Positions 40,027 through 60,712 of a stretch of 64,000 nt of DNA are shown piece by piece (the first letter of the stretch is position 1; the number at the start of each line of letters is the position of its first letter). The notes beneath the pieces are model-generated. The model saw only the letters and a list, made by a program, of their open reading frames with translations. It ran no database searches and was not told where the DNA came from. This DNA comes from Buxus sempervirens. Taxonomy: Eukaryota; Streptophyta; Magnoliopsida; Buxales; Buxaceae. The translations under genes were made by a program, and so were the position numbers. The DNA lies in the NCBI GenBank assembly GCA_947561395.2, contig OX387182.1, forward strand, positions 42,029,949-42,093,948, given 5' to 3'.

Positions 40027-42300
40027 TGTGAGACATGGGAAAAAATCACCGGAGTGATCATCCCTCCGTCGACACACGGGCTCAACGCAAAAATTGGGAG
40101 AGTCGCCACCATTCATGATTTTGGGGTGAGAATGGACAACAAAAGTTTCAAAACAAAGCAAAAATAGCCAAAAGACAAATTCTAGGGTAAAAATAACCCT
40201 ACTTGAAAATCGAATCCAGAGATGGGTAAGGGGATTAGATTATGAACGGGGGAAGGTGTTAGGCACCCCCATTCATCCACACGAAGTGGTTGCCAAGTGT
40301 ATGTTCATGCTAAAAAGAAAATAAAAAGCTTGCTAAAAATCATGAAAAAGCCTTGAAAAAGGAACAATGTATGATATTTTCACATGAGGATCTAAATGGA
40401 TTTTAGATCCTCTCTTATGTCAATATCACTTCTGGAACATTAAAAAGGTGGAAATCAAAGCACAAGTTGCTCAAAACCAAGTTAAATCAAATCCGGGAAG
40501 TTTGGTAAAAAGTATGTCATTTGCCTTAAAATCATTCAAATCCAATTCTAAATTGAACCAAACCAAATCCATTTGAAAGATTAAGGTAAATAAGAGTTTC
40601 ATGCAAAATTTCACTTCATTCCGATGAACAATCTAGGAGTTATGCTCCTTTGAAGTTGCTGTTGGGGATTTTTAAAAGTAGTAAGTGGGCAACTTTGGAA
40701 AATTGTCTAGAAAAATCCACTACATAGAAATCCACGAAATTTGGTGTGATTGAAGTTTGTATGGCCATCTTTCAACAGAAACTAGCCTCATACAAAAATC
40801 CCTTCGGATGTGCCTTGGGTGGTCTCCCGAACAGGCCCCGAAGATCACAGATTTACCCAGAAAAATGCAAATGAGCAGTTCTGAGTAAATCGGCTACCAA
40901 TAATTCAAATGGAATCCAAAAATTATGAAACCAACTGGATTTGAAAATAGACTCATAAAGGAGTACCCAGAAATAAAAATCACTCGAATCGGACTTAAAA
41001 CGAACACATGGCGGTCCGTTGAAGTGACAAGTTCTGTACTTGGACCTGAACTGTCCACTTAACTTCGACAGAGAGGTGTCAAAAATCGGCTAGATATAAA
41101 ATCATGAAATTTGGTGGACATAAACTAGACAGCCTCACCTTTCCCATGGTTCTGGAATCGCCCCAAAATTCATCCGGATGATGAAGTTACGGACGTCCGA
41201 AGTAGGGGTACAGGTGCTGTCAAGCTAAGCCACTTTTGAGTAAAACCAAGTCCGAAAATTGATAAAAATGAAATTCGTGCAAGATGAACACAAATACTTT
41301 AAAATCATCCGAAAGGCATTTCAGAATTGATTGAGATCATTTATTTGAGATTTATCACAATAAATGCAATAAACCCCAAATATGAGCCTACCCTGCCAAA
41401 ATAGTGATATGTATGTGCAAGAGTGTAAAACCAAGCAAGATCAATACAACATGCATATATTCAACAAAATAGGTTCTAGCATAGCCTAGGGTTCCGTTCC
41501 ATTATCGTTTCCCTCTGTTCTCTTTAAGATAATCAAGGGTACTTTGAATATGGAACGGTTTACAATCAATCAAAAAGGCCTTATGCTACATAGGTTCTAG
41601 CACTAGGGTCAATCCCCAGTCTCGTTTCTCCTAGATCCGCCTTCACGTTTTACGGCTAGGGGAGTCTTGAGATACTTTGAGCCGGGGAAGGATTTCCACA
41701 CATACAAACAAGGCTTTACACTACAGAAAGGTAGAAGAAGAGATCTAGATCTAGGAATGTAAAGACAGAAAATAAAAAAAGAAAAGTTGAGGCTTACCTG
41801 ATTGCTGGAGACGATTCCACAGCGGTTTTCTTCTTCTCTTGGAGTTCTTCTTTGCGAGAATTCAAAACAAGAGTTGTGTGCCATTTGCTCAAGGAGGAGG
41901 CTCCTATTTATAGGCAAGGGCTAAGGTCATTGGTAGACACAAATTAATGTCTAGAACCCCTCCAACCTAAACCCTAAGGTTATTTCCGCGATTTCCCCTC
42001 ATTTAATGAGGGACATAATGGTAAAAGTGAAAAGCTCTCGGAAAACCCTAATTTTGAGCAAACTTAAGGTATCCGGTATATCAGACCGGATAACAAAGGG
42101 CCTTAAGGTATCCGGTACATGGTACCGGATACGCTAAGGCTCACATGTATCCGGTATGAGTATCCGGATACGGGAAAGGGTATTTGTATCCGGATTGAGT
42201 ATCCGGATACAGATAAAAGTTTATTTTCTTCAAATTCTGTGCTGGCTTTCCAGGAGATAATGATTTTTGATGATTGTTTGTGCAATTTGGGGTGTCTACA
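40027..42300 (-). repeat. 3' LTR of the inner element
   Basis: Plus-strand reading from TGTGAGACATGGG to GGGGTGTCTACA. Nearly identical to 55416-57691. It contains TATAAATA (minus strand, 41905-41912), a CAG/GTAAGCC donor near 41800, a palindrome array at 42069-42212 and the conserved Tat/Ogre motif GGTGCCTAACACCTTCCC (minus strand, about 40250-40270). Confidence 0.96.
42069..42212. promoter_or_regulatory. TATCCGGTA...TACCGGATA palindrome array in U3 (3' LTR)
   Basis: Four tandem inverted-repeat units (for example GGTATCCGGTACATGGTACC with GGATAC) lie about 160-310 bases upstream (minus strand) of the TATA box. The copy in the other LTR is 57460-57602 and a variant is in the leader at 53762-53870. 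Confidence 0.75.
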
Positions 42301-42315
42301 ACTGCCCCTCTTTGT
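42301..42315 (-). promoter_or_regulatory. Polypurine tract of the inner element
   Basis: Minus strand AAAGAGGGGCAGT directly before the LTR start. Confidence 0.85.
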
Positions 42316-42852
42316 GGGAGCTGCGAAGCAGTGAGCTGCAAAGAGTAGACAAGCCCAAATTGCATTCCCTTGAGCATGATTTGCTCGGTTCAATTCAATT
42401 TTTGTAGAAAACAATTTTTGAGTGGAGATTTGCCAAAAAGGCCCTCACTTTAAGGGGGGCATCTCTCCAAGAGTTCTTAAATTCCACTGAGCCCTTTGTG
42501 GCTGTGAAGTGGATTTTAAGCCCAAAAATAGGATTTTTTGAAAAACTGATTTTTTATCAAACCAAGTTGAAAATTTAGTGGATATCATCCTTTTGACCAG
42601 GCACATTTCCCAGAGTTTTCCCAAATTCCACAGAGCTCTCGTGGCTGTGAAGTGGATTTCAAGACAAAAATAGGATTTTTGAGAAAATAGTAAGAATTAT
42701 AGCACAAGTTTGCTTCTTTTTTTTTCTTCTTTTTTTTCTTTTCTCTCTTTTTTCTTTTTTCTTTTCTCTTTTTTTCTATTTTTTCCTTTTTCTTTTTTTT
42801 TTCCTTTTTTTTTTTTTTTACAATGTGCTGACATATCTCCCTTCCTTTGCAG
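42316..42852 (+). other. 3' region with long polypyrimidine tract and splice acceptor
   Basis: The first part resembles 2627-2948 of the outer element. 42718-42822 is an almost pure pyrimidine run on the plus strand, followed by CCTTTGCAG at 42850-42852, matching the acceptor TTTTTGCAG at 20081 of the outer element's antisense gene. No coding sequence. Confidence 0.65.
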
Positions 42853-43731
42853 CTTTGGTTACTTGATCATTTGAGTCAGATTGAAGAGATCAATCGACAC
42901 ATCTTCCCGAGTCTGAAAGTCCCCTTGTTGATGAGCAACAGGGGGTGCCCCGATATTCCAGGGGGCAAACAGGGCTGGTTCACTTTCTTGGGCTCGCTTC
43001 AGGATGACCAGGTCAGATGGCCTGGTACTTATCAGCCTAATGCGGAGACAGTGATTAGCTTCCGTGATCGCAACTTTCTGATTCTAGCGGGCCTGAAGCA
43101 TGCAGTGCTGTATCTTCCTCTGCGGGTCCTTCGTCAGTTCCGTGCGACCCAGGGGATTATCATCCCATGTGGATATGAGGATCGTCTTGGGCCCCTTTCT
43201 ATGAAGCTGAATGCCTGGTTGATGAAGGAGTGGTCCTATGTCCGCTTTATGCATGGTCCAGTCTTCTCAGAAGCCCATGTGAAGGATTATCTCTTCTGGA
43301 TCCAAGAACAGATACAGACTCAGGCCCCGGTACCCGAAGATCCTCCTGTAGTCTTGGCTTCCACCTATGAGGACATTCTAGAGTCTGAGCGGGCTTCTCA
43401 TAAGCGGCTTCAGCAGATATGGGTACGGGAGGCCCAGGAGCTCAGGATACAGGGCGCTTATCTGGAGAGGCAGCTTGAGGAGCAGATCTCACGCCGTATT
43501 GCCATGGAAGAGAAGCTGGAGGAGCAGAGGCAGGCCCGTCGCTTCGAGGTCCGTATGATCCGGCAGAAGTACCAGGATACTTTGGCCAGCCTTAGGAGTA
43601 TGCGGATCAAGCAGGCCCTTTTAGATGAAGTCATTTCCTTCTTGAGTGATCCCACTGCAGAGGGGGCTTTAGGAGTCATTGCAGCTCAGGCAGCTCGGAT
43701 TCGGGAGCTTGAGGAGCGGCTAGGAGACTAG
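42853..43731 (+). CDS. Antisense ORF: DUF7745-like and coiled-coil protein, last exon
   Basis: An uninterrupted frame opposite to gag-pol, between integrase and the 3' LTR. The frame is open from 42847, but 42853 follows a good splice acceptor and matches the exon boundary at 20082, so it is probably the final exon of a spliced gene whose upstream exon is missing here; an in-exon ATG (MSNRGCPDIPGG, near 42930) could also serve as start. The N-terminal part carries LWLLDHLSQIEE, GGKQGWFTFLG and TYQPNAETVISFRD, then KEWSYVRFMHGPVF, and ends with about 120 residues of charged coiled coil (LERQLEEQISRRIAMEEK) to RIRELEERLGD. Additional antisense ORFs downstream of pol are known in the Tat lineage. 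Role unknown; DUF7745 relationship from memory. Confidence 0.7.
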   Translation, partial: LWLLDHLSQIEEINRHIFPSLKVPLLMSNRGCPDIPGGKQGWFTFLGSLQDDQVRWPGTYQPNAETVISFRDRNFLILAGLKHAVLYLPLRVLRQFRATQGIIIPCGYEDRLGPLSMKLNAWLMKEWSYVRFMHGPVFSEAHVKDYLFWIQEQIQTQAPVPEDPPVVLASTYEDILESERASHKRLQQIWVREAQELRIQGAYLERQLEEQISRRIAMEEKLEEQRQARRFEVRMIRQKYQDTLASLRSMRIKQALLDEVISFLSDPTAEGALGVIAAQAARIRELEERLGD

Positions 43732-44673
43732 CTTTATTTCCTGCACATTTTTCATACCTTTGTACAAAATTGAACTCCAATAGTGGAAATACAAAGGATT
43801 TAATTCAAAATAAAGTTTTTATATTATTGGCCTCAGAATGCTCAGATACTTGTAAAAACAAAGGTTTTATGAAAAGTATTTGATTTCTCATCACTGGCCA
43901 AAGTATAATTTTTCCTTTTTATATATTTTTTTTTTGTATTTTTTTTTGAAATTTGGTCTATGCACTTAATCACCTATAATTAAAGGAATTAGAACCAGGC
44001 TAAATAATGAAAAGGGTAGTCCAGAAAATACTGAGGGATCAGAACCGTCCATCTGAGGACCTTTAGAGTCATCCCCAACTGCCAAAACTGCCCCATTCTG
44101 CTCATGCCAACTTTGCTTGAAGCTCAGATCCCCATGATCAACTCAACCTCTGATTTTCTTTCATTTTTCTTTTTTTTTTCTTTTCTTTTTGCATTTTTGC
44201 CAATATTGCCCCTAGCGCCAGTTACGGTTTTCACTAGGGCTGGCTTCTGAATTCCGTCATCACCCATCTTACTCTGATATTTGAATGAACAAGCTAAGAT
44301 CACCGAGGGCTTAAAAATAGGACGAAATAAAGGCTAGGCTCAGTTTATGAAAGAAGGGGTATTAAAGGCCCAAAATTTTCAAGTGTGGAAATAGGTCAAC
44401 CGGATTTACAGTCATGATAAATTTAACCATTTCCCCAAATTGCATTTTTTTGCATCTTTTTTCACACTTGGCTTTCATTTGCCATTTCCATTGCTTTTCC
44501 TCTCTTTTTCTTTTTCGTACTTTGCCCCAATTTGTTTTGCCCCAATTTAAGACTGTAAATCCGGTTTGGGTTTATCAAAGAAACGAACCGGCTCAACTTG
44601 GCTAGACTAGGGATTAAAATTTTTGAAGGAAATAAAGAAAACTGGCCTCGGATCATTTCCTAGAAATATTCAC
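43732..44673. other. Spacer between antisense ORF and pol of the inner element
   Basis: No gene. Homologous to 32213-33194. It contains pyrimidine-rich tracts and the conserved CCCCTAGCGCCAGTTAC near 44211. Convergent 3' ends meet here. Confidence 0.5.
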
Positions 44674-47600
44674 TCAAGGAAAATACCTTTTTACTGCATC
44701 AGAGTTAATGGGCTCAGGAAAATCTGACCCATCCATTTCTGCTAAGATGAGTGCACCCCCTGACAGGACTTTCTTGACGACATAAGGGCCTTCCCAATTG
44801 GGCTTGAACTTACCACGAGGATCTTCCAGAAATGGTAGAATTTTCTTTAGCACCAAGTTTCCTTCTTGGACAGTTCTGGGCCTCACTTTCTTATTGTAGG
44901 CCCGGGCCATTCTCTTCTGGTACAACTGTCCATGGCAAAGCGCTTTCAATCGCTTTTCTTCTATCAGGTTAAGTTGATCATGTCTCGACTGGACCCATTC
45001 GGCTTCTTCTAGTTCTGCTTCCATGAGCACTCGGAGTGATGGGATCTCTACTTCCACTGGCAAGACTGCTTCCATCCCATAGACTAGGGAGTATGGGGTT
45101 GCCCCAGTTGAGGTCCGGATCGAGGTTCTGTAGGCATGTAGAGCAAGTGGCAGCATTTCATGCCAATCTTTGTAACTTACTACCATCTTCTGAATGATTT
45201 TCTTTATATTCTTGTTGGCTGCTTCTACTGCCCCATTCATCTTTGGCCTGTATGGAGCTGACTTATGGTGGGTGATCTGAAACTGCTCGCACATTTTCTT
45301 CATGTCCTTGTTCTTAATATTTGAAGCATTGTCTGATACTATGGCACTTGGCAGTCCATAGCGACAAATAATGTTGTGCTTCAAAAATTTAATGACATGG
45401 TTGCTTGTGATATTCGCATATGAAGCTGCTTCTACCCACTTAGTGAAATAGTCAATCGCCACCAGGATGAATCTGTGTCCGTTCGATGCCTTAGGGGAGA
45501 TCATGCCAATGACATCTATGCCCCACATAGAGAAGGGCCAGGGTGATGTCATGTTGTGCAGCTCACCTGGGGGTTCATGCTTGTTATCTGCATATATCTG
45601 GCATTGGTGGCACCTCCTGACATGTATACAGCAATCATGCTCCATGGTCGTCCAGTAGTATCCCAGCCTCAGGATCTTCTTAGCCAGCATGTGCCCACTC
45701 ATATGGGGCCCACAGACTCCATGTACGGTCTCGATCAGCCGTTCTGATTCAGCCTTGGCAACACATCTTAGCAGAATGTCGTTATGTGACCTCTTGTACA
45801 CATGTCCACCACTTAGCAGAAATTGACCAGCCAATCTCTGTATTGTCCTCTTCTCAGTAGCAGTGGCATTTTCTGGCAGACTCCGATTGTTCAAGAAATT
45901 TTTGATATCTTGGAACCACGGTGCTTCTTCTTCTGGTGCTCCCTCTAGAACGAGACAGTAAGCCGGTTCATCTCGGACCTCAATTTCCAGTGGTCTGATG
46001 TCTACTCCTTCTGGTATGCTGACCATTGAAGCCAAGGTTGCTAGAGCATCCGCAAACTGATTCTTGGCCCTTGGCATATAGTTGAAGGAAATTCGAGTGA
46101 AATTTGTGCTTATTTCTTCCAAATACTGGTGATAGGGGATCAATTTGTGATCCTTGGTTTTCCACTCACCAGTTGTTTGGAAGATGATAAGACTCGAATC
46201 CCCGTATACGTCAAGCTCCTCTACTCCATGATCCATGGCTGCTTGCAATCCCATTATGCATGCCTCATATTCTGCTATGTTATTGGTGCACTGGAATCTC
46301 AGCTTTACTGCAATCGGGATATGTGAACCATCTGGTTTAACCAAGACTGCCCCTATTCCGTTCCCATTCATATTGGCGGCCCCATCAAAGAACATCTGCC
46401 AAGAACTCTCACTGTCTTCCTCTTCAGTGTACAGAATTGCTTCATCTGGGAAGTTGGTCTTCAAGGGTTGATATTCTGGCAAAGGATGTGCAGCCAGGTG
46501 ATCAGCTATGGCTTGACCCTTGATCGCCTTCTGGGTGATGTATGTGAGGTCAAACTCGGACAGTAGTAGTTGCCACTTAGCCGTCCTGCCAGTCAGTGCC
46601 GGTTTCTCAAATAAATATTTCAGCGGGTCCATTCGGGATATCAATAGCGTGGAGTGACTAAGGAAATAATGCCTTAGCCTCTGAGTGGCCCACACTAGAG
46701 CACAGCAAGTCTTTTCCAATGGTGAGTATTTGGCTTCATATTCTGTGAATTTTTTACTCAGATAGTAGATTGCCCTTTCTTTTCTACCAGTCTCATCATG
46801 CTGCCCCAAGACACATCCCATCGTCGTTTCCAACACTGACAAGTACAGGATCAGTGGTCTTCCTGGAGTTGGTGGCACTAGCACAGGTGGGTTCAGCAAA
46901 TACCTCTTTATTGTGTCAAATGCCTGCTGGCAGTCCTCATTCCAGACCGTCGGGTTATCTTTCCTCAAAAGTTTGAAAATTGGTTCACAGATAGTAGTGA
47001 GCTGTGCTATGAACCGGCTTATGTATTGAATCCTTCCAAGAAAACCTCTGACCTCCTTCTCGGTTCTGGGTGCTGGCATTTCAATTATGGCCTTGGCTTT
47101 AGCCGGGTCAATTTCAATTCCTCTTCGGCTCACTATAAACCCAAGCAACTTTCCTGATGTAGTCCCAAAGACGCACTTAGCCGGGTTAAGCCGTAAACTG
47201 TACTTCCTGAGACGATCAAACACTTTCTTCAGATTGATCAAGTGGTCCTCCTCTTTGCATGATTTGGCAATCATATCGTCCACATAGACCTCCATCTCCT
47301 TGTGGATCATGTCATGGAATAGTGCAGTCATGGCCCGCTGGTATGTTGCCCCAGCGTTTTTAAGCCCAAACGGCATGACCGTGTAGTGGAATGTGCCCCA
47401 AGGTGTGATAAATGCTGTTTTCTCTTGATCCTCCTTAGCCATCTTGATCTGATTGTATCCTGAGAAACCATCCATGAAGGAAAACAAGCTATGTACCGCC
47501 GTATTATCGACCAGAATGTCGATGTGTGGAAGCGGAAAATCGTCCTTTGGGCTTGCCCTGTTCAAGTCTCTATAGTCCACGCACATTCGGACCTTCCCGT

Positions 47601-47859
47601 CCTTCTTGGGTATCGGCACTATATTTGCGAGCCACTCTGGGTACGTAGAGACTGCCAAAAATCCGGCTTGAAATTGTTTGACCACTTCGTCCTTGACCTT
47701 CAAGGTCCATTCCGGCTTCAATCTTCTCAGCTTCTGCTTAATCGGCTTAACCCCTGGCAAAATTGGCAACTTGTGCACCACCATGTCAGTGTCCAACCCC
47801 GGCATGTCCCGATATGACCAAGCAAACACATCCTTGTAATCTGCCAAGAACTGTGACAT
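44674..47859 (-). CDS. pol of the inner element: RT, dual RNase H, integrase
   Basis: 1061-residue frame. Reverse transcriptase at about residues 50-235 with MPFGLKNAGATYQRAM and the catalytic YVDD near 190. The Ty3/gypsy RNase H follows (RPLILYLSVLE, about 320-450), then a second archaeal-type RNase H (FFDGAAN near 492, EYEACI near 531, GDSSLI near 553); this duplicated RNase H is a hallmark of the Tat lineage. Integrase has an HHCC-type zinc region (CHQCQIYADNKH, about 745), DDE core residues in GIDVIGM (about 778), SDNAS (about 841) and NGAVEAANK (about 875), and a GPYVVKKVLSGG C-terminus without chromodomain. It copies the element RNA and inserts the product. Confidence 0.93.
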   Translation of the reverse strand: MSQFLADYKDVFAWSYRDMPGLDTDMVVHKLPILPGVKPIKQKLRRLKPEWTLKVKDEVVKQFQAGFLAVSTYPEWLANIVPIPKKDGKVRMCVDYRDLNRASPKDDFPLPHIDILVDNTAVHSLFSFMDGFSGYNQIKMAKEDQEKTAFITPWGTFHYTVMPFGLKNAGATYQRAMTALFHDMIHKEMEVYVDDMIAKSCKEEDHLINLKKVFDRLRKYSLRLNPAKCVFGTTSGKLLGFIVSRRGIEIDPAKAKAIIEMPAPRTEKEVRGFLGRIQYISRFIAQLTTICEPIFKLLRKDNPTVWNEDCQQAFDTIKRYLLNPPVLVPPTPGRPLILYLSVLETTMGCVLGQHDETGRKERAIYYLSKKFTEYEAKYSPLEKTCCALVWATQRLRHYFLSHSTLLISRMDPLKYLFEKPALTGRTAKWQLLLSEFDLTYITQKAIKGQAIADHLAAHPLPEYQPLKTNFPDEAILYTEEEDSESSWQMFFDGAANMNGNGIGAVLVKPDGSHIPIAVKLRFQCTNNIAEYEACIMGLQAAMDHGVEELDVYGDSSLIIFQTTGEWKTKDHKLIPYHQYLEEISTNFTRISFNYMPRAKNQFADALATLASMVSIPEGVDIRPLEIEVRDEPAYCLVLEGAPEEEAPWFQDIKNFLNNRSLPENATATEKRTIQRLAGQFLLSGGHVYKRSHNDILLRCVAKAESERLIETVHGVCGPHMSGHMLAKKILRLGYYWTTMEHDCCIHVRRCHQCQIYADNKHEPPGELHNMTSPWPFSMWGIDVIGMISPKASNGHRFILVAIDYFTKWVEAASYANITSNHVIKFLKHNIICRYGLPSAIVSDNASNIKNKDMKKMCEQFQITHHKSAPYRPKMNGAVEAANKNIKKIIQKMVVSYKDWHEMLPLALHAYRTSIRTSTGATPYSLVYGMEAVLPVEVEIPSLRVLMEAELEEAEWVQSRHDQLNLIEEKRLKALCHGQLYQKRMARAYNKKVRPRTVQEGNLVLKKILPFLEDPRGKFKPNWEGPYVVKKVLSGGALILAEMDGSDFPEPINSDAVKRYFP

Positions 47860-48238
47860 TTCATTTTTCTACACATCAGACAAGCATGACCCGATTTTTA
47901 CAATTTTTGGGTCCTCTTTGGTCCCAAGGTTTATGGATATGGTCTCCTCAATATTAGGTTGGACCCCCTTTTCATGACGTTCTAATTGGTATTCAATTTC
48001 TTTTGGAACGTCTTCTTCTTCGACCTCGGTCTCTTCTTCGACCCCCATGAGATCAAAGTCGAGCTCGAAGTCGAAGTCATATTCAACCTGGTCCAATTCG
48101 ATCTGATTATATGGCTCATAAGTGGTTTGGACCTTTTTGAAAAAATTAAATTTCCTAGAAAAAATAGAAAAATCTTTTTGGGTTTTTTGTGGGCCTTCTA
48201 AACATAATTCCCCTGAAGACGAAGGCCCATTAGAACCT
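47860..48238 (-). other. Linker between gag-protease and RT of the inner element
   Basis: Encodes an acidic segment (ELDQVEYDFDFELDFD, VEEETEVEEEDVPKE) upstream of RT; the equivalent stretch in the outer element is near 36.4-36.6 kb. Part of the polyprotein in this lineage; no catalytic motif. Confidence 0.6.
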
Positions 48239-51200
48239 TCAGGGAAATGGCAGTCCACTATTGGAGTTTTTTTTGGAAGCCGCGTCAGTTTGCCGAACTA
48301 ACGCTGCTTCAAAGGTAAGAGGAGTTTCCTCCCAATTGTTCAATACAAAATTTTGGGGAGCAGGGGAAATAGGGAAAGCCCGCTCCTCAAGCCCAGCATC
48401 CGATGCCATCATCACCGGGAGGGTACTGCCCTTTTCTGCTACGGGGCCCAATCCAGAAATGACATTGTCTGGAATCTTTACTGCGGCCCAGTCAATAAAC
48501 GGCAGTTCCATGTCTGCCCCTGTCTTTTCGCCTTCAGTCATGGCGAAGAAGGCCCCAACATCTTCAGAAAAGTCTACCTGCTGCCCGGGCTGTGGCCCAG
48601 GCCCATCTGCTGCTCCCAGTATTTGAGATGGGTTATAGGGTTGTAGGGCCGAAACCAAAGGCTTTTGAAATGGGTTGACATTTCGGTATGGGGGTTTGGA
48701 CTGGTCCATGGGAGGAGAAATTTGGATTATATATGAGGGTTTTGGGAAGTTCACCCTCAGATGTGGGAGTTTTCCTTTGCTTCTGCTCTCCCCTTCTTCA
48801 TGTTTCATTCTTCTCCAGCCTCTGGGCTTGAAGCCCAACCCTACTTTGGGGATCAGTTTCTTAGCCGTGATTGGCTCCACCATCCCCTGCAGATTGATCC
48901 CCAGGCCTTTCCCTGGGTGAAAGTGGTATTTCTCCATCACTTTCTTGACCATTTTTTCTGCAGTGGTCCCCTTTTCCTTCTTTTTATCACACCCCCCAGG
49001 TATGTAATTGACCGCCTCAAATTGGAATGAGTGGAATGCAATCTTGTCAACAGTTAGGTCAACATTGATTAAGGGTACATCAGGTGACACGATGGGCGGC
49101 ACCAAGTTTTCAGCTAGGACTGTTATCACCCTTTGCCCTCTTATATATTTCACCCTTTGGTGGAGCGTGGATGGTATTGCCCTAGCCGAATGTATCCACG
49201 GCCTTCCTAGGAGCAGATTGAAGGCTGCGGGTATATCCATCACTTCAAATGTGATGTTAAAGATATTCGGCCCAATTGTGACCGGCAGTTCAATCTCCCC
49301 TAGGGAGTGGGTCTTGGAGCTATCAAAAGCCCTAACTATCCGCCCATTTCGTTTTATCCTTGACTGGTCCAGACCCAGCTTGGTAAAAGTGATTAACGGG
49401 CAAACGTTTAACGCTGACCCGTTGTCAATTAAAACCCGTGCAACCATGCAGCCCTTACAAAGCACAGTGATGTGCAAAGGGTCCACATGATAACACCCAC
49501 CTGGGCTGATCTCACCCTCTGAGAAACTTATCACATTATGTGACAAGATTTGACCAACCATTTTACCAAGCTGGTCTGGATCAATTGTCTGGGATACGTG
49601 TGCACTCTGCAGCACCCTCAACAATGCATCCCTGTGCTTTTCGGAATTCAGCAAAAGGCCCAGTATTGAAATCTGGGCCGGGCCCAGTATTGAAATCTGG
49701 GCCGGGACCTTGTTTAGCTGATCCACAAGATTGAATTCACTTTTCTTTATTATTTTTATGAGGTCTGCTGCATCATTTTCTGCACCCTGGGGGGTGTCTT
49801 CTCCCACTTTATTTTTTCCCTTCTGTTTTCTTTTTTCTTCATTTTCTTTTTCTATTTTTTCTTTTTCTACTTCTGTCTCTTTTTCTTTCTCTTCACCCCC
49901 TGCACATCTCCCTGACCTCGTCATGAGGTTTACCTCCTCCTGGTTCGGGTTTCTAACCGCTGGAACCATAGCCGTGATTCCCTCGCTGTAATTCCATGGT
50001 ACGGCGGCCTCTGAATAGGCTAGTTTAGGGATGTTTACCACTAATGGCTGGAGTCTGGACCGGGATGTATGGGCCGGTTTAGGGATAGCAAGGGCTGGCT
50101 GCACATTTACAACCAAGGGTTGAAGTTTGGAATTTGTGGGGACAGAAGAAGTGATGGAAGCAGTGGTGGGGTCAAGATTGATGACCAGTGGAGCCTTAGA
50201 CGGCCTGGATGGGGAATAAGTGGGTGGACTGCAATTGAAGACCAATGGAGGCCTTGCAGTATTTATCTGGGTCATAAGAGATGAGACCCGGTTCAAAGAG
50301 GAACTTATGTCCTCAGCAGCTGTATTATTTTTTTGGGAGACCATGTTGATCTCCTCCTCTTCCTCCTCTGGGAAAAATCGGACCTGGACCGTGGTCCCCA
50401 CGGGAGCTATGAGCTGTGATGGGTCAAAGGCCCTTCTGGTGGTGGATATGGCAGTGATGGAGTTGGATGGGCCTGCCCCATTGTGGTAAGGCAGAGGGTT
50501 CTGCCCAATATCATTCCCGGACTGGGCCGGTGCAGCAGTGTTGAACACTAAGGCCTTTTGGTCCAACAGGTCCTGGACCGCATGCTTCAATACCCAGCAG
50601 GTATCAGTAGAGTGCCCCGGTGCACCCATGTGGAAGTCACAGGTGACCGATGTGTCAAAATTTCTCCCCCTGGTGGCATTCGGGTTAGGCTCCTTCAGAG
50701 TCAAGTATTCCCCTTTCAGCAGGGTTGGCAGTAGTTGGGACAGAGATATGGGTAGGGGGGTGAAAACCCGGTTCTTTCTTGCTGTGAACCAGGCATCCCG
50801 CTCCTCCTTAGAAAAAGTTCTCCTTGTGTTAGCTGGCACAGAGGGAGAGAAGTTGACATTCATCGGGGTCTGGTACGACTGCTGGGCCTGTTGGGGTGCC
50901 GAGATGTTGACGTGCAGTGGCTTCTTGGCTGGAGGAGCCTGGACCAGGTTCACCTCCCCTTCTTTTCGGGCCCCCGTCTTTTTGAATCCGGCCCCTTTCT
51001 TCTGGGCCATGGAGGCCGAGGACTCAGACTGCCCAGTCAGAGTAGAGTAGTCTATCAGCCGTCCTGACCTGACCCCTTCTTCAATCCGGTCAGCCACCTG
51101 CACCAGGGCTGCAAAGTTGGTGGTTATCTGACCCACTAGATGGTTGTAAAAGGGCTGCCCCAGTGTGCCCATAAAGGTGGAGATCATCTCCGGCTCTTGC

Positions 51201-51982
51201 ATAGGTGGCCTGACCTGGGAGGCGGCCTCTCTCCATCTCTTGGCGTACTGCCGTACCGGCTCATCTTTGCCCTTGGTCATCCTCATCATGTCGTACCGGT
51301 CCGGCACGATCTCAGAGTTGAACTTGTATTGGTCCAGGAAAGCGTCGGCTAGGTCCTTCCACCTCCTGATTCTTCCATGGTCCACTGTAGCGAACCACCG
51401 AAGGGCTGACCCGGTCAGACTCCTCTGGAAGAGCTGGATCAGTATTCCATCGTCCCGGCCAAACTGGCACAAGGCCCCGCAGTATAGTTTCAGATGGCTT
51501 AATGGGCAGCCCGTGCCATCAAACTTGTCAAAATCCGGGCACCTGAACTTAGCCGGTAGACAGACGTCCGGGTACATGCACAGGTCCTCGAAGGTGGTGC
51601 CTGCATGGCTGCCTCCCCCCTTCACCTCTTTCAGCTCTGCCTGGATTCTTTCTATCCTCTGCAGCATTTTCTTTTCCATCTCATCTCGGGCCTTTTCTTT
51701 CTCCAGCTCTTTCTCAGACTCCGCCATATTTTCCCTGATCAGAATGGGTTCAGGGACTGGTTCAGAAATGGGCTCAGGCATGGGCTGAACCGGAGGCGGA
51801 ATGTAGGCCTGAGGTGGTGGTGCCTGATGGGAAGTAGATGCCTGGTTCGGGGCTTGGGCCTGTTGGGCCTGAGCCGCCAGTAGGTCCCCCAGCATTTTGG
51901 CCAGACCGGCCACTTGCTCCTGCAGTTGAGTAAAGTCCTGAGCAGGGACGGTAGCTTGGGCTTGGTTCTCTTCAGTATTCAT
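48239..51982 (-). CDS. gag and protease of the inner element
   Basis: 1247-residue frame from ATG at 51982, 62 bases after a splice acceptor (52045). N-terminus: coiled coil and Gln/Pro-rich linker; then the retrotransposon gag domain (about 160-300, LYCGALCQFG, RSLTGSALRWFA, VRQYAKRWREAA). A zinc-knuckle-like CDFHMGAPGHSTDTC lies near 445-460. The aspartic protease is near 845-960 with active-site LIDNGSALNV. After it comes a G-patch-like stretch (GKGLGINLQGM ... GLGFKP) near 1000-1050. A Lys/Glu-rich region lies between (about 680-730). It builds the virus-like particle and processes the polyprotein. A short direct duplication gives a repeated AQISILG motif near residue 755. Confidence 0.93.
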   Translation of the reverse strand: MNTEENQAQATVPAQDFTQLQEQVAGLAKMLGDLLAAQAQQAQAPNQASTSHQAPPPQAYIPPPVQPMPEPISEPVPEPILIRENMAESEKELEKEKARDEMEKKMLQRIERIQAELKEVKGGGSHAGTTFEDLCMYPDVCLPAKFRCPDFDKFDGTGCPLSHLKLYCGALCQFGRDDGILIQLFQRSLTGSALRWFATVDHGRIRRWKDLADAFLDQYKFNSEIVPDRYDMMRMTKGKDEPVRQYAKRWREAASQVRPPMQEPEMISTFMGTLGQPFYNHLVGQITTNFAALVQVADRIEEGVRSGRLIDYSTLTGQSESSASMAQKKGAGFKKTGARKEGEVNLVQAPPAKKPLHVNISAPQQAQQSYQTPMNVNFSPSVPANTRRTFSKEERDAWFTARKNRVFTPLPISLSQLLPTLLKGEYLTLKEPNPNATRGRNFDTSVTCDFHMGAPGHSTDTCWVLKHAVQDLLDQKALVFNTAAPAQSGNDIGQNPLPYHNGAGPSNSITAISTTRRAFDPSQLIAPVGTTVQVRFFPEEEEEEINMVSQKNNTAAEDISSSLNRVSSLMTQINTARPPLVFNCSPPTYSPSRPSKAPLVINLDPTTASITSSVPTNSKLQPLVVNVQPALAIPKPAHTSRSRLQPLVVNIPKLAYSEAAVPWNYSEGITAMVPAVRNPNQEEVNLMTRSGRCAGGEEKEKETEVEKEKIEKENEEKRKQKGKNKVGEDTPQGAENDAADLIKIIKKSEFNLVDQLNKVPAQISILGPAQISILGLLLNSEKHRDALLRVLQSAHVSQTIDPDQLGKMVGQILSHNVISFSEGEISPGGCYHVDPLHITVLCKGCMVARVLIDNGSALNVCPLITFTKLGLDQSRIKRNGRIVRAFDSSKTHSLGEIELPVTIGPNIFNITFEVMDIPAAFNLLLGRPWIHSARAIPSTLHQRVKYIRGQRVITVLAENLVPPIVSPDVPLINVDLTVDKIAFHSFQFEAVNYIPGGCDKKKEKGTTAEKMVKKVMEKYHFHPGKGLGINLQGMVEPITAKKLIPKVGLGFKPRGWRRMKHEEGESRSKGKLPHLRVNFPKPSYIIQISPPMDQSKPPYRNVNPFQKPLVSALQPYNPSQILGAADGPGPQPGQQVDFSEDVGAFFAMTEGEKTGADMELPFIDWAAVKIPDNVISGLGPVAEKGSTLPVMMASDAGLEERAFPISPAPQNFVLNNWEETPLTFEAALVRQTDAASKKNSNSGLPFP

Positions 51983-52169
51983 TGTTTTGGCTTTGGATCT
52001 AGTTACTGGAGCAATGATTGCAAGTGTACTTGGGTTGAATGTACCTGAGGAAAAAATGAATAGAACATGTTAGCTTCCATTTAACTTGAGTCACACCCCT
52101 ATATATGTAAACCAGTAGGTTAGGTGAACACCAATCCAGATTTTTTGTTTTTTTTTTATTTATTTTGAG

Positions 52170-53460
52170 TTGGAATATTCTAGGGCTTCCAAGGGTCCCA
52201 AATTTTTTTTTATTTTTATTTGATTGATAAAAATAACCAACCAAGGTTTTCATGGAATATTCTAGGGCTTCCAAGGGTCCCAATTTTTTTTGATTTGATT
52301 TATAAAAATAACCAACTAAGGTTTTCATTTTTTTTTTGATTTGATTGATAAAAATAACCAACCAAAGGTATCTTGGAATATTCTATCCAAGTATCCCACA
52401 AATGTTTTGATTTGATTGATAAAAATAACCAACCAAAGGTGTCTTGGAATATCCTAGGGCTTCCAAGTATCCCACCAATGTTTTGATTTGATTGATAAAA
52501 ATAACCAACCAAAGGTGTCTTGGACTACTCTATCCAAATATCCCACAAATGTTTTGATTTGATTGATAAAAATAACCAACCAAAGGTGTCTTGGAATATT
52601 CTAGGGCTTCCAAGTATCCCACAAATGTTTTGATTTGATTGATAAAAATAACCAACCAAAGGTGTCTTGGACTACTCTATCCAAGTATCCCACAAATGTT
52701 TTGATTTGATTGATAAAAATAACCAACCAAAGGTGTCTTGGAATATTCTATCCAAGTATCCCACAAATGTTTTGATTTGATTGATAAAAATAACCAACCA
52801 AAGGTGTCTTGAACTACTCTTTCCAAGTATCCCACAAATGTTTTGATTTGATTGATAAAAATAACCAACCAAAGGTGTCTTGGACTACTCTATCCAAGTA
52901 TCCCACAAATGTTTTGATTTGATTGATAAAAATAACCAATCAAAGGTTTTCATTTTTTTTTTGATTTGATTGATAAAAATAACCAACCAAGGTTTTCATG
53001 GAATATTCTAGGGCTTCCAAGTGTCCCACTTTTTTTGATTTGATTGATAAAAATAACCAACCAAAGGTGTCTTGGACTACTCTATCCAAGTATCCCACAA
53101 ATGTTTTGATTTGATTGATAAAAATAACCAACCAAAGGTGTCTTGGACTACTCTATCCAAGTATCCCACAAATGTTTTGATTTGATTGATAAAAATAACC
53201 AATCAAAGGTTTTCATTTTTTTTTTTTGATTTGATTGATAAAAATAACCAACCAAGGTTTTCATGGAATATTCTAGGGCTTCCAAGTGTCCCACTTTTTT
53301 TGATTTGATTGATAAAAATAACCAACCGAGGTTTTCATTTTTTTTTTGATTTGATTGATAAAAATAACCAACCAAGGTTTTCATGGAATATTCTAGGGCT
53401 TCCAAGTGTCCCACTTTTTTTTGATTTGATTGATAAAAATAACCAACCAAAGGTTTTTTT
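52170..53460. repeat. Tandem array of 71- and 76-bp units in the leader
   Basis: About 17 units sharing GATTTGATTGATAAAAATAA and CCAACCAAAGG. The long unit (76 bp) has GGAATATTCTAGGGCTTCCAA; the short one (71 bp) has GGACTACTCTATCCAAG. A third kind has GGTTTTCATTTTTTTTT. The array lies upstream of gag within the predicted intron. Reading frames across it on the minus strand are a by-product of the repeat. Confidence 0.92.
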
Positions 53461-53761
53461 TTTCTCTTCAAATTTGCTGAATTTTCTCAGTTTTCAAGTT
53501 CCAGAGTTTGACTGACACATGTTTGAGTTGAGTTGGTGTCAAAAATATGACACCTTGGTTTCCTCTTTGATTTTCAAACTTAGGTTAAATCCTGAAAGAA
53601 TATTTTATTTTATTCTTTTTTGTTTTTCTTTCTTTTTTTTTTTTTGTATTTTTGGGAACATTTCTTATGTTCTTTTCGGGGTGCCTAAGGATTATCCACA
53701 GTGTTTTAGGCATTTTATTCTGAAAACTTGGGCTGAAAAGCCAATTTGTGCATTTTTGAAC

Positions 53762-53870
53762 GTATCCGGTATAACATTCCGATAATAATATGCCTTATTG
53801 TATCCGGTTACCATAACCGGATTCACGCATATGCCTTTTTATCCGGAAATATATACCGGATATGAACAAG
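53762..53870. promoter_or_regulatory. TATCCGG palindromes in the leader of the inner element
   Basis: Inverted-repeat units such as TATCCGGTTACCATAACCGG and TATCCGGAAATATATACCGG repeat the U3 motif of the same element's LTRs. Confidence 0.65.
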
Positions 53871-53879
53871 GTTGTTATT

Positions 53880-55390
53880 AACCGGCCTGAGTTGCTGGTT
53901 ATTGCCGAAATGGCCCTTTTTGACTCATTTTTTCACCAGATTTGATTTTTTTTCATTCCCAATTGATGTTCACCTTAATTTGACCTTCAAAACTTGCCCC
54001 AAATTGGGCTTGGACATTATATTTGCAAAATCCTCAAATTCATGAAAAGAACATGGTTTTACCTTGCCACCTTGTATTACCCTCATTTAATATGGTATTC
54101 ACATTATACCTTGGCCTGTAAAACATGCAAACGGCCTTCCCACATTTACACCCAATTCCCCAAATGCAATTGTGTGCTTTTAGTCGAAAACGTGTTTCTC
54201 CACCTTCCAGCGTATGGTTTTTGGGTTTTGGCTTAATTGGCAACTTAGAACTCAAGTCTAGTGATGCCTGGAATCGAATCATAGATCCCATTGTCATCAC
54301 ATCATTGACTCAAATTCTAAGGTAAATGTTTTCACTTTCGCTTTCCGAAGTCACGACCTCGGTGCGCCAAGCTACACACATTCATGGTTCAACTTCCTAA
54401 TAGGTAAAGGGTAGGCTGTGCAAATTGTTTCAAGTGCTCAAGTGCAATTTAAAATTGTGGTAACATTCACAACGTCCCAGCCCCTTGCCACTCTTTTTCG
54501 TAGCCATGCATTCAATTTCAAGCCAAGGCATATATGACAAAATAATGAAGCTAAATACAAGCAAGCAAGCACCAAAACAACTAAATATGCACAAAAAATA
54601 TTACATGCCCAAAAAGTGTTATACAAAACATGTCATTTGTACAAACAACCATTAAATCATGTAAGCATGCTTGAAACTCAAAAGTGTTCCTAAAATTCCA
54701 GATTTCATGCTCTTTTTCATGCTCAAAGTGTACCATTTCTACCCCAAATTGGAGCCTAAAATTTTAGCACTTACTTGGCATGGTTCAAAAGTGTTTCAAT
54801 GAGGTAAAATATGCTTTAAAATCTCCAGAAATATGCACTAAAATTTTCAGATTTCTCATGATCAAAAGTGCTTCCCTTATACCCCAAATTAATGCCTAAA
54901 AATTTAGCAACTACTTGACATGATACAAAAGTGTTTTGATGGTAAAAGCATGCTTTAAAACCCCCAAAATATGCACTAAATTTCCAGATTTTTTTTCTTT
55001 ACTTTCATGCTCAAATCAAGTCCTCCTATACCCCCAAATCAAAGGCATGGCATCATACAAACATTAAGCACAAAAAAAACTTTATTCATGGCAAAACATG
55101 CTTGAATACCCAAAATACACATAAAATTTCCAGATTTCAGATATTGAATTTTTTTTTTAGCTCATGGCCTTCAAACCCCAAAATAACACATGCTATCACA
55201 TAATATAGCCAAGTCATATCACAATATGGGTTTTCTTTTCAACAAAAATCAAGCAACATGCTTATGCCTTTATCCCAAAGCATACCAATCTGATTTGACA
55301 TGTAACAATATGCCCAAATAAAGTAATCAAAATAGCAAGCATCCAAAAGTATAGAAAAGCATGAACCAATACAAAAAATGGCTTAAATCC
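53880..55390. other. Leader region of the inner element, conserved blocks, no clear gene
   Basis: AT-rich. The segment 54040-54400 is similar to 59930-60300 of the outer element, and 54400-55390 to 60300-60342 plus 62854-63390. A conserved block GGTGCGCCAAGCTACACACA lies at 54361-54380 and 60257-60276. Short frames exist on both strands; none shows a recognisable domain. Confidence 0.5.
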
Positions 55391-55394
55391 ACAA

Positions 55395-55413
55395 GTCCCC
55401 AGCAGAGTCGCCA
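55395..55413 (-). promoter_or_regulatory. Primer binding site of the inner element
   Basis: Minus strand TGGCGACTCTGCTGGGGAC two bases after the 5' LTR. It starts with TGG, the complement of a tRNA CCA end. Ogre elements are reported to use tRNA-Arg; I could not verify the match. Confidence 0.7.
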
Positions 55414-55415
55414 GT

Positions 55416-57691
55416 TGTGAGACATGGGAAAAAATCACCGGAAGATGATCGTCCCTCCGTCAACACACGGGCTCAACGCAAAAATTAGGAGAGTCGCCAC
55501 CATTCATGATTTTGGGGTGAGAATGGACACCAAAAGTTTCAAAACAAAGCAAAAATAGCCAAAAGACAAATTCTAGGGTAAAAATAACCCTACTTGAAAA
55601 TCGAATCCAGAGATGGGTAAGGGGATTAGATTATGAACGGGGGAAGGTGTTAGGCACCCCCATTCATCCACACGAAGTGGTTGCCAAGTGTATGTTCATG
55701 CTAAAAAGAAAATAAAAAGCTTGCTAAAAATCATGAAAAAGCCTTGAAAAGGGAACAATGTATGATATTTTCACATGAGGATCTAAATGGATTTTAGATC
55801 CTCTCTTATGTCAATATCACTTCTGGAACATTAAAAAGGTGGAAATCAAAGCACAAGTTGCTCAAAACCAAGTTAAATCAAATCCGGGAAGTTTGGTAAA
55901 AAGTATGTCATTTGCCTTAAAATCATTCAAATCCAATTCTAAATTGAACCAAACCAAATCCATTTGAAAGATTAAGGTAAATAAGAGTTTCATGCAAAAT
56001 TTCACTTCATTCCGATGAACAATCTAGGAGTTATGCTCCTTTGAAGTTGCTGTTGGGGATTTTTAAAAGTAGTAAGTGGGCAACTTTGGAAAATTGTCTA
56101 GAAAAATCCACTACATAGAAATCCACGAAATTTGGTGTGATTGAAGTTTGTATGGCCATCTTTCAACAGAAACTAGCCTCATACAAAAATCCCTTTGGAT
56201 GTGCCTTGGGTGGTCTCCCGAACAGGCCCCGAAGATCACAGATTTACCCAGAAAAATGCAAATGAGCAGTACTGAGTAAATCGGCTACCAATAATTCAAA
56301 TGGAATCCAAAAATTATGAAACCAACTGGATTTGAAAATAGACTCATAAAGGAGTACCCAGAAATAAAAATCACTCGAATCGGACTTAAAACGAACACAT
56401 GGCGGTCCGTCGAAGTGACAAGTTCTGTACTTGGACCTGAACTGTCCACTTAACTTCGACAGAGAGGTGTCAAAAATCGGCTAGATAGAAAATCATGAAA
56501 TTTGGTGGACATAAACTAGACAGCCTCACCTTTCCCATGGTTCTGGAATCGCCCCAAAATTCATCCGGATGATGAAGTTACGGACGTCCGAAGTAGGGGT
56601 ACAGGTGCTGTCAAGCTAAGCCACTTTTGAGTAAAACCAAGTTCGAAAATTGATAAAAATGAAATTCGTGCAAGATGAACACAAATACTTTAAAATCATC
56701 CGAAAGGCATTTCAGAATTGATTGAGATCATTTATTTGAGATTTATCACAATAAATGCAATAAACCCCAAATATGAGCCTACCCCGCCAAAATAGTGATA
56801 TGTATGTGCAAGAGTGTAAAACCAAGCAAGATCAATACAACATGCATATATTCAACAAAATAGGTTCTAGCATAGCCTAGGGTTCCGTTCCATTATCGTT
56901 TCCCTCTGTTCTCTTTAAGATAATCAAGGGTACTTTGAATATGGAACGGTTTACAATCAATCAAAAAGGCCTTATGCTACATAGGTTCTAGCACTAGGGT
57001 CAATCCCCAGTCTCGTTTCTCCTAGATCCGCCTTCACGTTTTACGGCTAGGGGAGTCTTGAGATACTTTGAGCCGGGGAAGGATTTCCACACATACAAAC
57101 AAGGCTTTACACTACAGAAAGGTAGAAGAAGAGATCTAGATCTAGGAATGTAAAGACAGAAAATAAAAAAAGAAAAGTTGAGGCTTACCTGATTGCTGGA
57201 GACGATTCCACAGCGGTTTTCTTCTTCTCTTGGAGTTCTTCTTTGCGAGAATTCAAAACAAGAGTTGTGTGCCATTTGCTCAAGGAGGAGGCTCCTATTT
57301 ATAGGCAAGGGCTAAGGTCATTGGTAGACACAAATTAATGTCTAGAACCCCTCCAACCTAAACCCTAAGGTTATTTCCGCGATTTCCCCTCATTTAATGA
57401 GGGACATGATGGTAAAAGTGAAAAGCTCTCGGAAAACCCTAATTTTGAGCAAACTTAAGGTATCCGGTATATCAGACCGGATAACAAAGGGCCTTAAGGT
57501 ATCCGGTACATGGTACCGGATACGCTAAGGCTCACATGTATCCGGTATGAGTATCCGGATACGGGAAAGGGTATTTGTATCCGGATTGAGTATCCGGATA
57601 CAGATAAAAGTTTATTTTCTTCAAATTCTGTGCTGGCTTTCCAGGAGATAATGATTTTTGATGATTGTTTGTGCAATTTGGGGTGTCTACA
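55416..57691 (-). repeat. 5' LTR of the inner element
   Basis: 2276 bp, nearly identical to 40027-42300. TATAAATA on the minus strand at 57296-57303, leader exon to 57189, palindrome array at 57460-57602. The duplication GGTAG follows at 57692-57696. Confidence 0.96.
57460..57602. promoter_or_regulatory. TATCCGGTA...TACCGGATA palindrome array in U3 (5' LTR)
   Basis: Same as 42069-42212, here in the LTR that would drive transcription. Confidence 0.75.
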
Positions 57692-58310: not shown

Positions 58311-58745
58311 TTGTTGGAATATTTTAGGGCTTCCAACATGTCCCACAAGATATGAATTTGTTGGTACGAAAAAGACCATCCAAAGAGGTTGTTGGAATAT
58401 TTTAGGGCTTCCAACATGTCCCACAAGATATGAATTGGTTGGTACGAAAAAGACCATCCAAAAAAGTTGTTAGAATATTTTAGGGCTTCCAACATGTCCC
58501 ACAAGATATGAATTGGTTGGTAGCAAAAAAACCATCCAAAGAGTTGTTGGAATATTGTAGGGCTTACAACATATCCCACAAGACGTAAATTGGTTGGCAC
58601 GAAAAAGGCCATCCAAAAAGTTGTTGGAATATTTTAGGGCTTCCAACATGTCCCACAAGATATGAATTGGTTGGTACAAAAAAGACCATCCAAAGAGTTG
58701 TTGGAATATTTTAGGGCTTTCAACATATCCCACAAGATATAAATT
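58311..58745. repeat. Tandem array of 77-78-bp units in the outer leader
   Basis: Units begin at 58311, 58389, 58467, 58544, 58621 and 58698 with TTGTTGGAATATTTTAGGGC and contain TCCCACAAGATATGAATTGG and ACCATCCAAA. They are homologous to the 76-bp units of the inner element (shared GGAATATT-TAGGGCTTCCAA, TCCCACAA, CCAACCAAAG/CCATCCAAAG) but much diverged. Confidence 0.88.
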
Positions 58746-59458
58746 GGAATTAAGGCTTCCAAAGCCTCCTGAAATTACGCAGGCTTTCAAGAGCCTATGA
58801 AGGGTTCTAGAATCACACAAGCTTCTAGGGGCTTATGAAGACAAACATCTGAAATTTCAGGCTTTCAGAGGTCCTATGAGTTTCTAAATTAAGGTTTTAG
58901 AAAGCCTATGAGATTAAAAATCTGAAATTCAAAGGCTTTTAGAGGCCCATGGAATTTTTGGAGAAAATCTAAAATTCAAAGGCTTTCAGAGGCCCATGGA
59001 AAAATTTTTACCTTTTTTTTTTAGACTTTTGATTTGATTTTTTTTTCTTTTTGAAATTTCTTATTCAAGAACAGATTTTTAAATTGAATTGTTCTTATCA
59101 AACTTTGGAGATTAAAAAATGATTTGAAATTCTTTTTCCTCATTTTTCCATTAGATTGCACTTCAAGAATGTGTTTTGCAACATTTATGTGATTTGAGGT
59201 TCTATTAAAGTGTATTTTGATTAAAACACATTTTCCTTTGTCACTTCCACTCTTTGAGTTAAGTTACTTTTTCAACTTAGGTAAAAATTTTATAAAAATG
59301 CTTAACCCTTTGATTTGAATGAGTTTATAAGAATTTGGATGCTTTTTACTGTTATTGAAGTGTTTGTATTCTGTTTGTATCACTTAAGAGGTTAAAAGAA
59401 CCAAGTTTGTTGGCAAAAGTTGCTGAAATAGCAATTAAATCCGTAAAACCTCATATAT
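58746..59458. other. Leader sequence with short GGCTTTCAGAGGCCCATG repeats
   Basis: 58745-59010 holds five or more diverged copies of a motif like AGGCTTTCAGAGGCCCATG. The remainder to 59458 is T-rich. No gene. Confidence 0.5.
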
Positions 59459-59590
59459 AGTGCGGACTAGCCGTGACTGCATTTAAAATGCGGTCAGGCT
59501 ATGTCCGTAAATAAAATGCGGTCAGGTTATGTCCGCAAATGAAATGCGGACAGGCCATGTTCGCAAATGAAATGCGGTTTACGGACGGAA
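59459..59590. promoter_or_regulatory. TGTCCGCAAATNAAATGCGG repeats in the outer leader
   Basis: Four copies of TGTCCGYAAATRAAATGCGG-like units, the same family as in the outer U3 (2403-2509). Confidence 0.7.
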
Positions 59591-60694: not shown

Positions 60695-60712
60695 TGAGAT
60701 ACGAATATCTCA
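60695..60712 (-). promoter_or_regulatory. UUCG-loop hairpin before an LTR splice acceptor
   Basis: Minus strand TGAGATATTCGTATCTCA, identical to the copies at 17010 and 31547, 24 bases before the acceptor AG at 60671. Confidence 0.68.

Follow-up and report, generated by a model that had tools for sequence, protein, structure and literature searches.

Do the short palindromes that precede the TATA boxes of certain plant long terminal repeat (LTR) retrotransposons serve as binding sites for a dimeric regulator, and could the elements themselves encode it? The question is raised by a 64,000-nucleotide stretch of Buxus sempervirens DNA (contig OX387182.1; the whole stretch is called the window), which is plant-like DNA with nested Ty3/gypsy elements, predominantly on the minus strand. 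An inner element (B) is nested inside an outer element (C), and a third family is represented by two LTR-like units, for which the name given by an earlier reader, solo LTRs 1 and 2, is retained. An earlier note on this DNA had reported palindromes upstream of the TATA box in three LTR families and had suggested a dimeric, fast-evolving regulator, of element or host origin, as their ligand. The palindromes were confirmed where the note had placed them, and all five LTRs with a U3 region in the window carry four or five, some of them decayed, upstream of the TATA box. These five (both LTRs of B, the 3' LTR of C, and solo LTRs 1 and 2) are the ones identified here without an LTR-finding program. 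The arrays are interpreted, with a probability of about one half, as operators through which a dimeric DNA-binding regulator would act on the LTR promoter and on its own; the elements' antisense gene would probably encode this regulator.

Geometry, placement and family specificity of the palindromes

The best palindromes of all three families share a common geometry, TCCG-N11-CGGA. The window contains 15 exact copies without the duplicate LTR of B (19 with it), 14 of them in arrays and one outside, at 17754; six of the array copies belong to B, five to the solo family and three to C (one in each of three C arrays). A Markov null of 500 sequences gave a mean of 0.19 for this pattern, with a maximum of 4 for any spacer between 0 and 60. 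Among inverted 4-mer pairs with spacers of 3-40, the pattern is the most over-represented in the window, its 15 copies comparing with 0.30 predicted by 4-mer frequencies. At a threshold of at least 10 of 12 positions, the generic form TRTCCG-N11-CGGAYA has 31 matches, 28 of them in arrays, with 2.55 expected in the whole window.

The dyad period is 28 bp in C, where the half-site TGTCCGCAT returns each 14 bp in the U3 array with alternating orientation, and B and the solo family share a period of 39 bp. The gap between palindromes thus differs by 11 bp, while the spacing of half-sites within a palindrome is equal. This difference is close to one helical turn, so neighboring dimers may be kept in a similar relative orientation. 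The arrays are also rich in CpG (observed/expected 1.25 in B, 0.86 in C and 1.48 in solo LTR 2, versus 0.63, 0.38 and 0.54 for the whole LTRs), and, since the TCCG core contains a CpG, binding could be methylation-sensitive.

The distances from dyad to TATA box are 286, 247, 208 and 169 bp in both LTRs of B, 281, 253, 225 and 197 bp in the 3' LTR of C, 208, 169, 64 and 25 bp in solo LTR 1 (the two distal dyads being decayed), and 245, 206, 102, 63 and 24 bp in solo LTR 2. The conserved position described in the earlier note therefore holds only broadly (24 to 286 bp), and its wording "just upstream of the TATA box" describes the placement too narrowly. The U3 arrays occupy LTR positions 103-220 in B and 114-198 in C, with the TATA boxes at 389 and 395, although BLAST clearly aligns the two U3 sequences in just two short segments, one of 21 bp at the LTR end and one of 39 bp around the TATA box. 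The position of the array has thus been kept between B and C although the surrounding sequence has diverged. Two palindromes of B (42081-42120) and two of solo LTR 1 (11195-11234) lie at identical distances from the TATA box, 208 and 169 bp, in LTRs that can barely be aligned; this match may reflect old common descent or chance. Variation of copy number between sister LTRs, also claimed earlier, is seen in the solo family and not in B, whose LTRs have four dyads each. Solo LTR 2 exceeds solo LTR 1 by a single dyad; the alignment of the two has a gap of 38 columns there and a further gap, of 1 column, at a distance of 32 bp (the within-cluster step of solo LTR 2 is 39 bp).

The consensus half-sites are about GTATCCGGTAT in B, TGTCCGCATTT in C (left arms) and TGTATCCGACAT in the solo family. 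The palindrome sequence differs between families, as had been claimed, in the flanks and in both arms, whereas the TCCG-N11-CGGA core is common to all three; likewise, the fast evolution ascribed to the regulator holds for the flanks, but the core recurs in every family. Comparison of the family consensus arms (positions -12 to -3) gave four differences in both arms, none in the left only and two in the right only for B and C, 2/0/0 for B and the solo family, and 4/0/2 for C and the solo family, these three pairwise comparisons not being mutually independent. The symmetric differences sit at positions -10, -5, -4 and -3. The expectation that the arms change together is thus borne out between families. 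Moreover, when right arms were compared with the left consensus of their own family, 231 of 300 positions matched, a value reached by none of 10000 label permutations (see below for shared descent within arrays), and 21 of 30 right arms were uniquely closest to their own family. This set comprised 7 palindromes of B, 14 of C and 9 of the solo family; dyads 59457 and 3047 were omitted, and the three of the array downstream in solo LTR 2 were kept apart. The array of the duplicate B LTR was removed from this family-arm comparison, as from the exact-core count and the array-identity and own-partner comparisons below. The fixed N11 spacing of the half-sites and the family differences in both arms support the suggestion that the palindromes would be binding sites for a dimer.

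Arrays beyond the U3 and the antisense gene

The U3 is not the only region with arrays, and five further ones were found elsewhere (Table 1): one in the leader of B, one in the leader of C, one at the 3' end of the internal region of C, one downstream in solo LTR 2, and one before an antisense gene of C. The two leader arrays lie past the same homology blocks (54059-54453/59955-60344 and, nearer, 53985-54030/59667-59711), and the nearer block is ~120 bp from the array in B and ~90 bp in C. In both B and C, matching arrays therefore flank the presumed transcription start on both sides (the U3 of C being that of its 3' LTR). The downstream array of solo LTR 2 has no clear counterpart in solo LTR 1.

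Scored with family array models, each array exceeded all 100 null sequences. The C-type model (three units, 28 bp) gave 48 of 54 at 2431-2509, 47 at 59474-59552, 41 at 19021-19099 and 37 at 2953-3031, with a null maximum of 31; these four places, all assigned to C, are the only ones in 64 kb above all 100 nulls, and the next best score, 27, is at chance level. The half-site words of the models were derived from arrays found first (the C word from the LTR array), and among the arrays above the nulls the one at 19021-19099 is the only independent find, unseen before the half-site scan.

This array precedes the TATA box of the antisense gene, and its last dyad is followed after 132 bp by the long frame's first ATG; as background, 6.7% of random positions lie at most 35 bp from a TATA word. 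The evidence for the array is a run of half-sites in a 14-bp register. An earlier ATG, at 19148, opens merely an 11-codon open reading frame (ORF). The 5' part of the gene contains a DUF7745 match (19652-19966, E 1.4e-7, 31.3 bits versus a Pfam cut-off of 26) and a plant mobile domain (PMD) match that falls under its cut-off (E 0.0029, 17.3 bits versus 34.9). Its reading frame is interrupted by stops, shifts once, and after ~20474 is split by a large insertion, so that the gene is broken (breaks located by eye). The insertion includes an ORF (22031-23734, plus strand) with DUF659 and a BED zinc finger, which we take to be a hAT-like transposase, and a dense cluster of GC-rich inverted repeats (20536-21163) near its left end.

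The antisense ORF of B is 72 and 74% identical to the two pieces of the C gene. Sequence comparison and the array model found no counterpart in B of the 5' half of the C antisense gene, of the antisense promoter or of the 3'-internal array. B retains only the C-terminal part, so that, if the protein is the binder, B would have to rely on other copies. A 99-residue helix predicted in the B antisense ORF (AlphaFold model from three sequences, mean predicted local distance difference test score, pLDDT, 50) would suit dimerization. The array before the DUF7745/PMD-like gene of C strengthens, without proving, the suggestion of an element-encoded regulator, to which a host repressor or activator is the alternative.

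The operator interpretation and its competitors

The sites, their spacing and symmetry, their family specificity, and their placement at two promoters (the antisense one decayed) are established. On the operator interpretation, a dimer would recognize a pair of half-sites in inverted orientation, their TCCG cores separated by 11 bp, and the bases on both sides of the core would set family specificity. Several dimers side by side at a fixed period would make the array a cooperative operator. The binder would be the antisense DUF7745/PMD-like protein of the elements. It would occupy the promoter of its own gene as well as that of the LTR, where the leader array would probably be involved too, and binding would switch sense transcription on, or limit it, for its own family only, in the manner of foamy virus Tas or of VANC. 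A more far-reaching and tentative hypothesis is that the elements run a self-contained circuit, in which an antisense DUF7745/PMD-like dimer at family-specific TCCG-N11-CGGA operators of its own promoter, LTR and leader would provide each family with a private, insulated on/off or anti-silencing code, and in which the host PMD proteins (MAIL1, MAIN) would be domesticated descendants of such regulators.

Several observations weigh against the operator interpretation. C holds just three exact TCCG-N11-CGGA cores, and its right-arm consensus deviates from its left at two positions. Nine of the 30 right arms lack a unique closest match to their own family, and, as palindromes of one array share descent, the label permutation test overstates independence. 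The array before the antisense gene is decayed, with 4/10, 7/10 and 6/10 symmetric positions, no exact TCCG-N11-CGGA and no palindrome passing the generic scan, and the tested stretches around the C 3'-internal and the solo LTR 2 downstream arrays contain no TATA-like word. The candidate regulator is intact nowhere in the window, the C gene being broken and the B gene lacking its 5' half. The AlphaFold model is unreliable outside the helix and too poor to show a DNA-binding fold, and no function of DUF7745 was found in open-licence literature. A host factor could bind equally at both promoters. Finally, the claim is carried by three families in one locus.

The main competing explanation, a real if somewhat doubtful possibility, is that the arrays are bound by host proteins (a single transcription factor or repressor, or several), which the elements use or by which they are targeted while the flanks drift or track different paralogues. 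Predicted sites for host factors abound in plant LTRs, as far as the available part of the source goes (PMC11656987). The recurrence of the TCCG-N11-CGGA core in all families is what one host protein family would need, and the same factor could govern both C promoters. This explanation does not readily account for half-sites that differ, in both arms, among families of one genome, and none of the candidate factors considered fits all three families. The B and solo consensus lack the TGTC of ARF sites, the C consensus lacks the GGATA type of MYB-related sites, and DREB sites likewise fail to match the three families together. The LBD3/4 motif, (G)CGGC(G) in the part of the source available (PMC12711582), was rejected as well: CGGC occurs in 0/7 palindromes of B and 0/14 of C, although 4/9 and 3/3 of the solo family (7/12) do carry it. 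The DOWN motif of MAIN/MAIL1, given as CATGCAGTTT in the accessible text of PMC9899485, is unlike the half-sites by eye.

A neutral origin, in which slippage or unequal exchange multiplied tandem repeats that have no function and were homogenized within each element, is improbable. Tandem repeats are common in such elements according to the portions of the sources available (PMC11963269, PMC6317226), and about one unit was recently gained or lost between the solo LTRs. Within single arrays, identity among palindromes is 0.70-0.93 for the arms (positions 3-12), 0.20-0.77 for the centre and 0.21-0.50 for the DNA between palindromes (eight arrays, excluding the decayed dyads 53774, 59457, 11195 and 11234 and the two antisense-side arrays of C). 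Most units are therefore not simply recent tandem copies, and the neutral explanation was rejected on this difference between arms and spacers; the same half-sites also recur in four separated C arrays, and near-promoter positions recur in all three families. In two of the eight arrays, C leader (0.77) and proximal solo LTR 2 (0.73), the centres are nearly as alike as the arms or more so, which favors the neutral explanation, counts against operators, and may partly reflect recent duplication there. Still less probable is a role of the palindromes at the RNA level, as hairpins of the element transcript that serve packaging, export or translation control. The U3 and the leader are both transcribed, and all seven folded stretches (the 19-kb array excluded) are far more stable than shuffled sequences (z -3.6 to -11.6), as palindromes are by construction. 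Arms match their own partner little better than the arms of other palindromes (8.29 versus 7.83 of 10 positions in B, 6.23 versus 6.14 in C and 7.67 versus 7.23 in the solo family; permutation p 0.12, 0.43 and 0.07; 7, 13 and 12 palindromes, including dyads 59457 and 3047). B and the solo family lean slightly towards the own partner, as hairpins would, but there is no clear partner-specific covariation inside families, and the pattern is that expected for repeated dimer half-sites rather than for individually co-varying hairpins. Among the arm pairs of 29 palindromes (without dyads 3020, 3047 and 59457 and the 19-kb array), 218 of 290 are Watson-Crick; read on the plus strand, the remainder comprises 15 G-T, 16 A-C and 41 other pairs, with no G-U bias on either strand. 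The compensatory changes and G-U bias that hairpins predict are thus missing. Furthermore, the antisense strand folds more stably than the sense strand in six of the seven stretches (five if the 3'-internal one is read on the strand of the element), and one array precedes the TATA box of an oppositely transcribed gene.

Comparable arrangements are found in several known systems. Human T-cell leukemia virus type 1 (HTLV-1) has repeated regulatory sites in its U3 (the 21-bp repeats) and an antisense-encoded nuclear regulator, HBZ; the 21-bp repeats are bound by host CREB with Tax. Foamy virus Tas (Bel-1) is not known to be antisense-encoded or to be related to DUF7745. Its binding targets are the U3 and the internal promoter from which its own gene is transcribed (PMC7390438, as far as the accessible text goes), so that one element-encoded regulator serves the U3 and its own second promoter; here, both C promoters bear the same type of array (the antisense one decayed), and the gene product would be the regulator. 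The two target promoters of Tas share little sequence according to the same text, whereas both promoters here have palindromes of one type, at which binding is predicted.

VANC21 binds dense arrays of a 9-base motif of its own transposon family, and these arrays evolve by tandem repeat formation (PMC5735166). The likeness extends to family-specific short motifs, dense arrays in non-coding parts of a transposable element (TE), variable copy number and proposed co-evolution with a TE-encoded protein, in the parts of the sources available (PMC5735166, PMC12844716, PMC6419827). VANDAL is a DNA transposon, with the motif YAGTATTAY arrayed in one orientation and no mention of palindromes in those parts, whereas B is an LTR retrotransposon, and YAGTATTAY occurs once in the window. 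B and C are not VANDAL members and resemble them in way of working only (a VANC gene was not searched for). Retand TRP28 comes from a non-chromovirus Ty3/gypsy element with an antisense gene between pol and the 3' LTR, a proposed DNA-binding regulator and tandem repeats nearby; it encodes Transposase_28 instead of a DUF7745/PMD-like protein, and its repeats are tandem repeats of the internal region, not proposed as target sites in the text available (PMC11963269).

Antisense genes of plant LTR retrotransposons have long been known without an assigned function, and the portions of the literature consulted merely suggest a regulatory role, some of the proteins being nuclear or predicted to bind DNA (PMC7264820, PMC11963269). 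PMD extra open reading frames (eORFs) are reported in 57% of Ogre elements in the available part of PMC6317226. No report of operator palindromes in plant LTRs, or of target sites of antisense proteins, was found in open-licence literature, judged by titles and abstract openings among the matches listed. TE-encoded regulator systems are already known; a probably TE-encoded regulator with private palindromic operator arrays in LTR retrotransposons is probably the new aspect. If the operator interpretation is true, the arrays are ready-made target sequences that make the function of the antisense gene directly testable, the VANC system and viral transactivators have a counterpart among plant LTR retrotransposons, and there is a lead on the original role of the plant mobile domain.

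Organization of the locus

The second RNase H domain is a trait of the Tat/Ogre-type non-chromovirus lineage. A domain search of B (44674-47868) gave RVT_1, RT_RNaseH, RVT_3 and rve in that sequence, which is the Ty3/gypsy order reverse transcriptase (RT) - RNase H - integrase with a second RNase H. The coding part of B consists of two ORFs, one for Gag with a G-patch and one for RT, two RNase H regions and integrase. B and C share ~77% identity across 8.4 kb. The Tat/Ogre assignment that had been made for every LTR is thus indicated by domain order for B and, via its identity to B, for C, whereas the lineage of the solo family is unproved from LTR-like units alone. The solo units have a TGTAAGCACC start and a TGGCGACTC-like word near the 3' end, like B and C, and no clean target duplication was seen at their ends (both by eye). 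An RT query for relatives in IMG/VR gave 10 pattern matches, none confirmed as a relative, and a DNA pattern combining the polypurine tract with the LTR start matched two IMG/VR contigs, neither with a blastn or tblastx match to the window.

Table 1. Elements, palindrome arrays, TATA boxes and antisense gene parts in the window (positions are those of the window).
Feature	Position	Strand	Details
B 3' LTR U3 array	42069-42212	-	four palindromes, dyads 42081/42120/42159/42198, 39-bp period, half-site GTATCCGGT
B 5' LTR U3 array	57460-57602	-	same four palindromes, dyads 57472-57589
B TATA box, 3' LTR	41905-41912	-	LTR position 389
B TATA box, 5' LTR	57296-57303	-	
C 3' LTR U3 array	2403-2509	-	dyads 2414/2442/2470/2498, 28-bp period, one exact TCCG-N11-CGGA
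C 3' LTR TATA box	2210-2217	-	LTR position 395
Solo LTR 1 arrays	11183-11391	+	dyads 11195, 11234 (decayed, 6/10 and 4/10), 11339, 11378; TATA 11403
Solo LTR 2 arrays	28193-28440	+	dyads 28206, 28245, 28349, 28388, 28427; TATA 28451
B leader array	53762-53863	-	dyads 53774 (decayed, 5/10), 53812, 53851; B-type half-sites; score 32 vs null maximum 23
C leader array	59446-59581	-	dyads 59457 (decayed) to 59569; C-type half-sites each 14 bp; score 47
C 3'-internal array	2953-3045		decayed; C-type half-sites in steps of 27-28 bp; flanked by 3' LTR and antisense region; score 37
Solo LTR 2 downstream array	29720-29822	+	dyads 29732/29771/29810, 39-bp period, left arms decaying
C-type array before antisense gene	19021-19099	+	slots for dyads 19032/19060/19088, 28-bp period; score 41, reached by 0/100 nulls
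Antisense gene TATA box	19121-19127	+	33 bp from last dyad of array
C antisense gene, 5' part	19220-20474	+	starts at first ATG of long frame
C antisense gene, 3' part	31791-32209	+	beyond insertion; coiled-coil-like; pairs with C-terminal half of B antisense ORF
B antisense ORF	42832-43731	+	299 aa, C-terminal part only; DUF7745 E 0.11, under cut-off
Inner element B	40027-57691	-	nested inside C; 5-bp target site duplication GGTAG
B 3' LTR	40027-42300	-	2274 bp; 99.3% identity to 5' LTR
B 5' LTR	55416-57691	-	2276 bp
Outer element C, 3' LTR	936-2611	-	
Outer element C, 5' LTR	begins (inner end) 63411	-	exits window before its U3
Third family, LTR-like unit 1 (solo LTR 1)	10601 to ~14310	+	
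Third family, LTR-like unit 2 (solo LTR 2)	27602 to ~30920	+	

The TGGCGACTC-like word, as in a primer binding site, lies ~60-85 bp before the LTR 3' end in B (55490-55500), C (63484-63494) and solo LTR 2 (30848-30857), as seen by eye. The G-patch is a module adjoining the protease in some retroviruses; in B it is located near the end of the Gag ORF (48239-52069, minus strand; E 7.7e-6, passing the Pfam cut-off). Between the leader array and gag, both elements contain leader tandem repeats, with units of 71 bp in B (52207-53457) and 77 bp in C (58311-58747). Another repeat family is present in both orientations at 15934-17385, 27021-31790 and 60345-62849, with approximate borders. A CGTTACA-like word was read at two ends of these copies, one of which is split by solo LTR 2.

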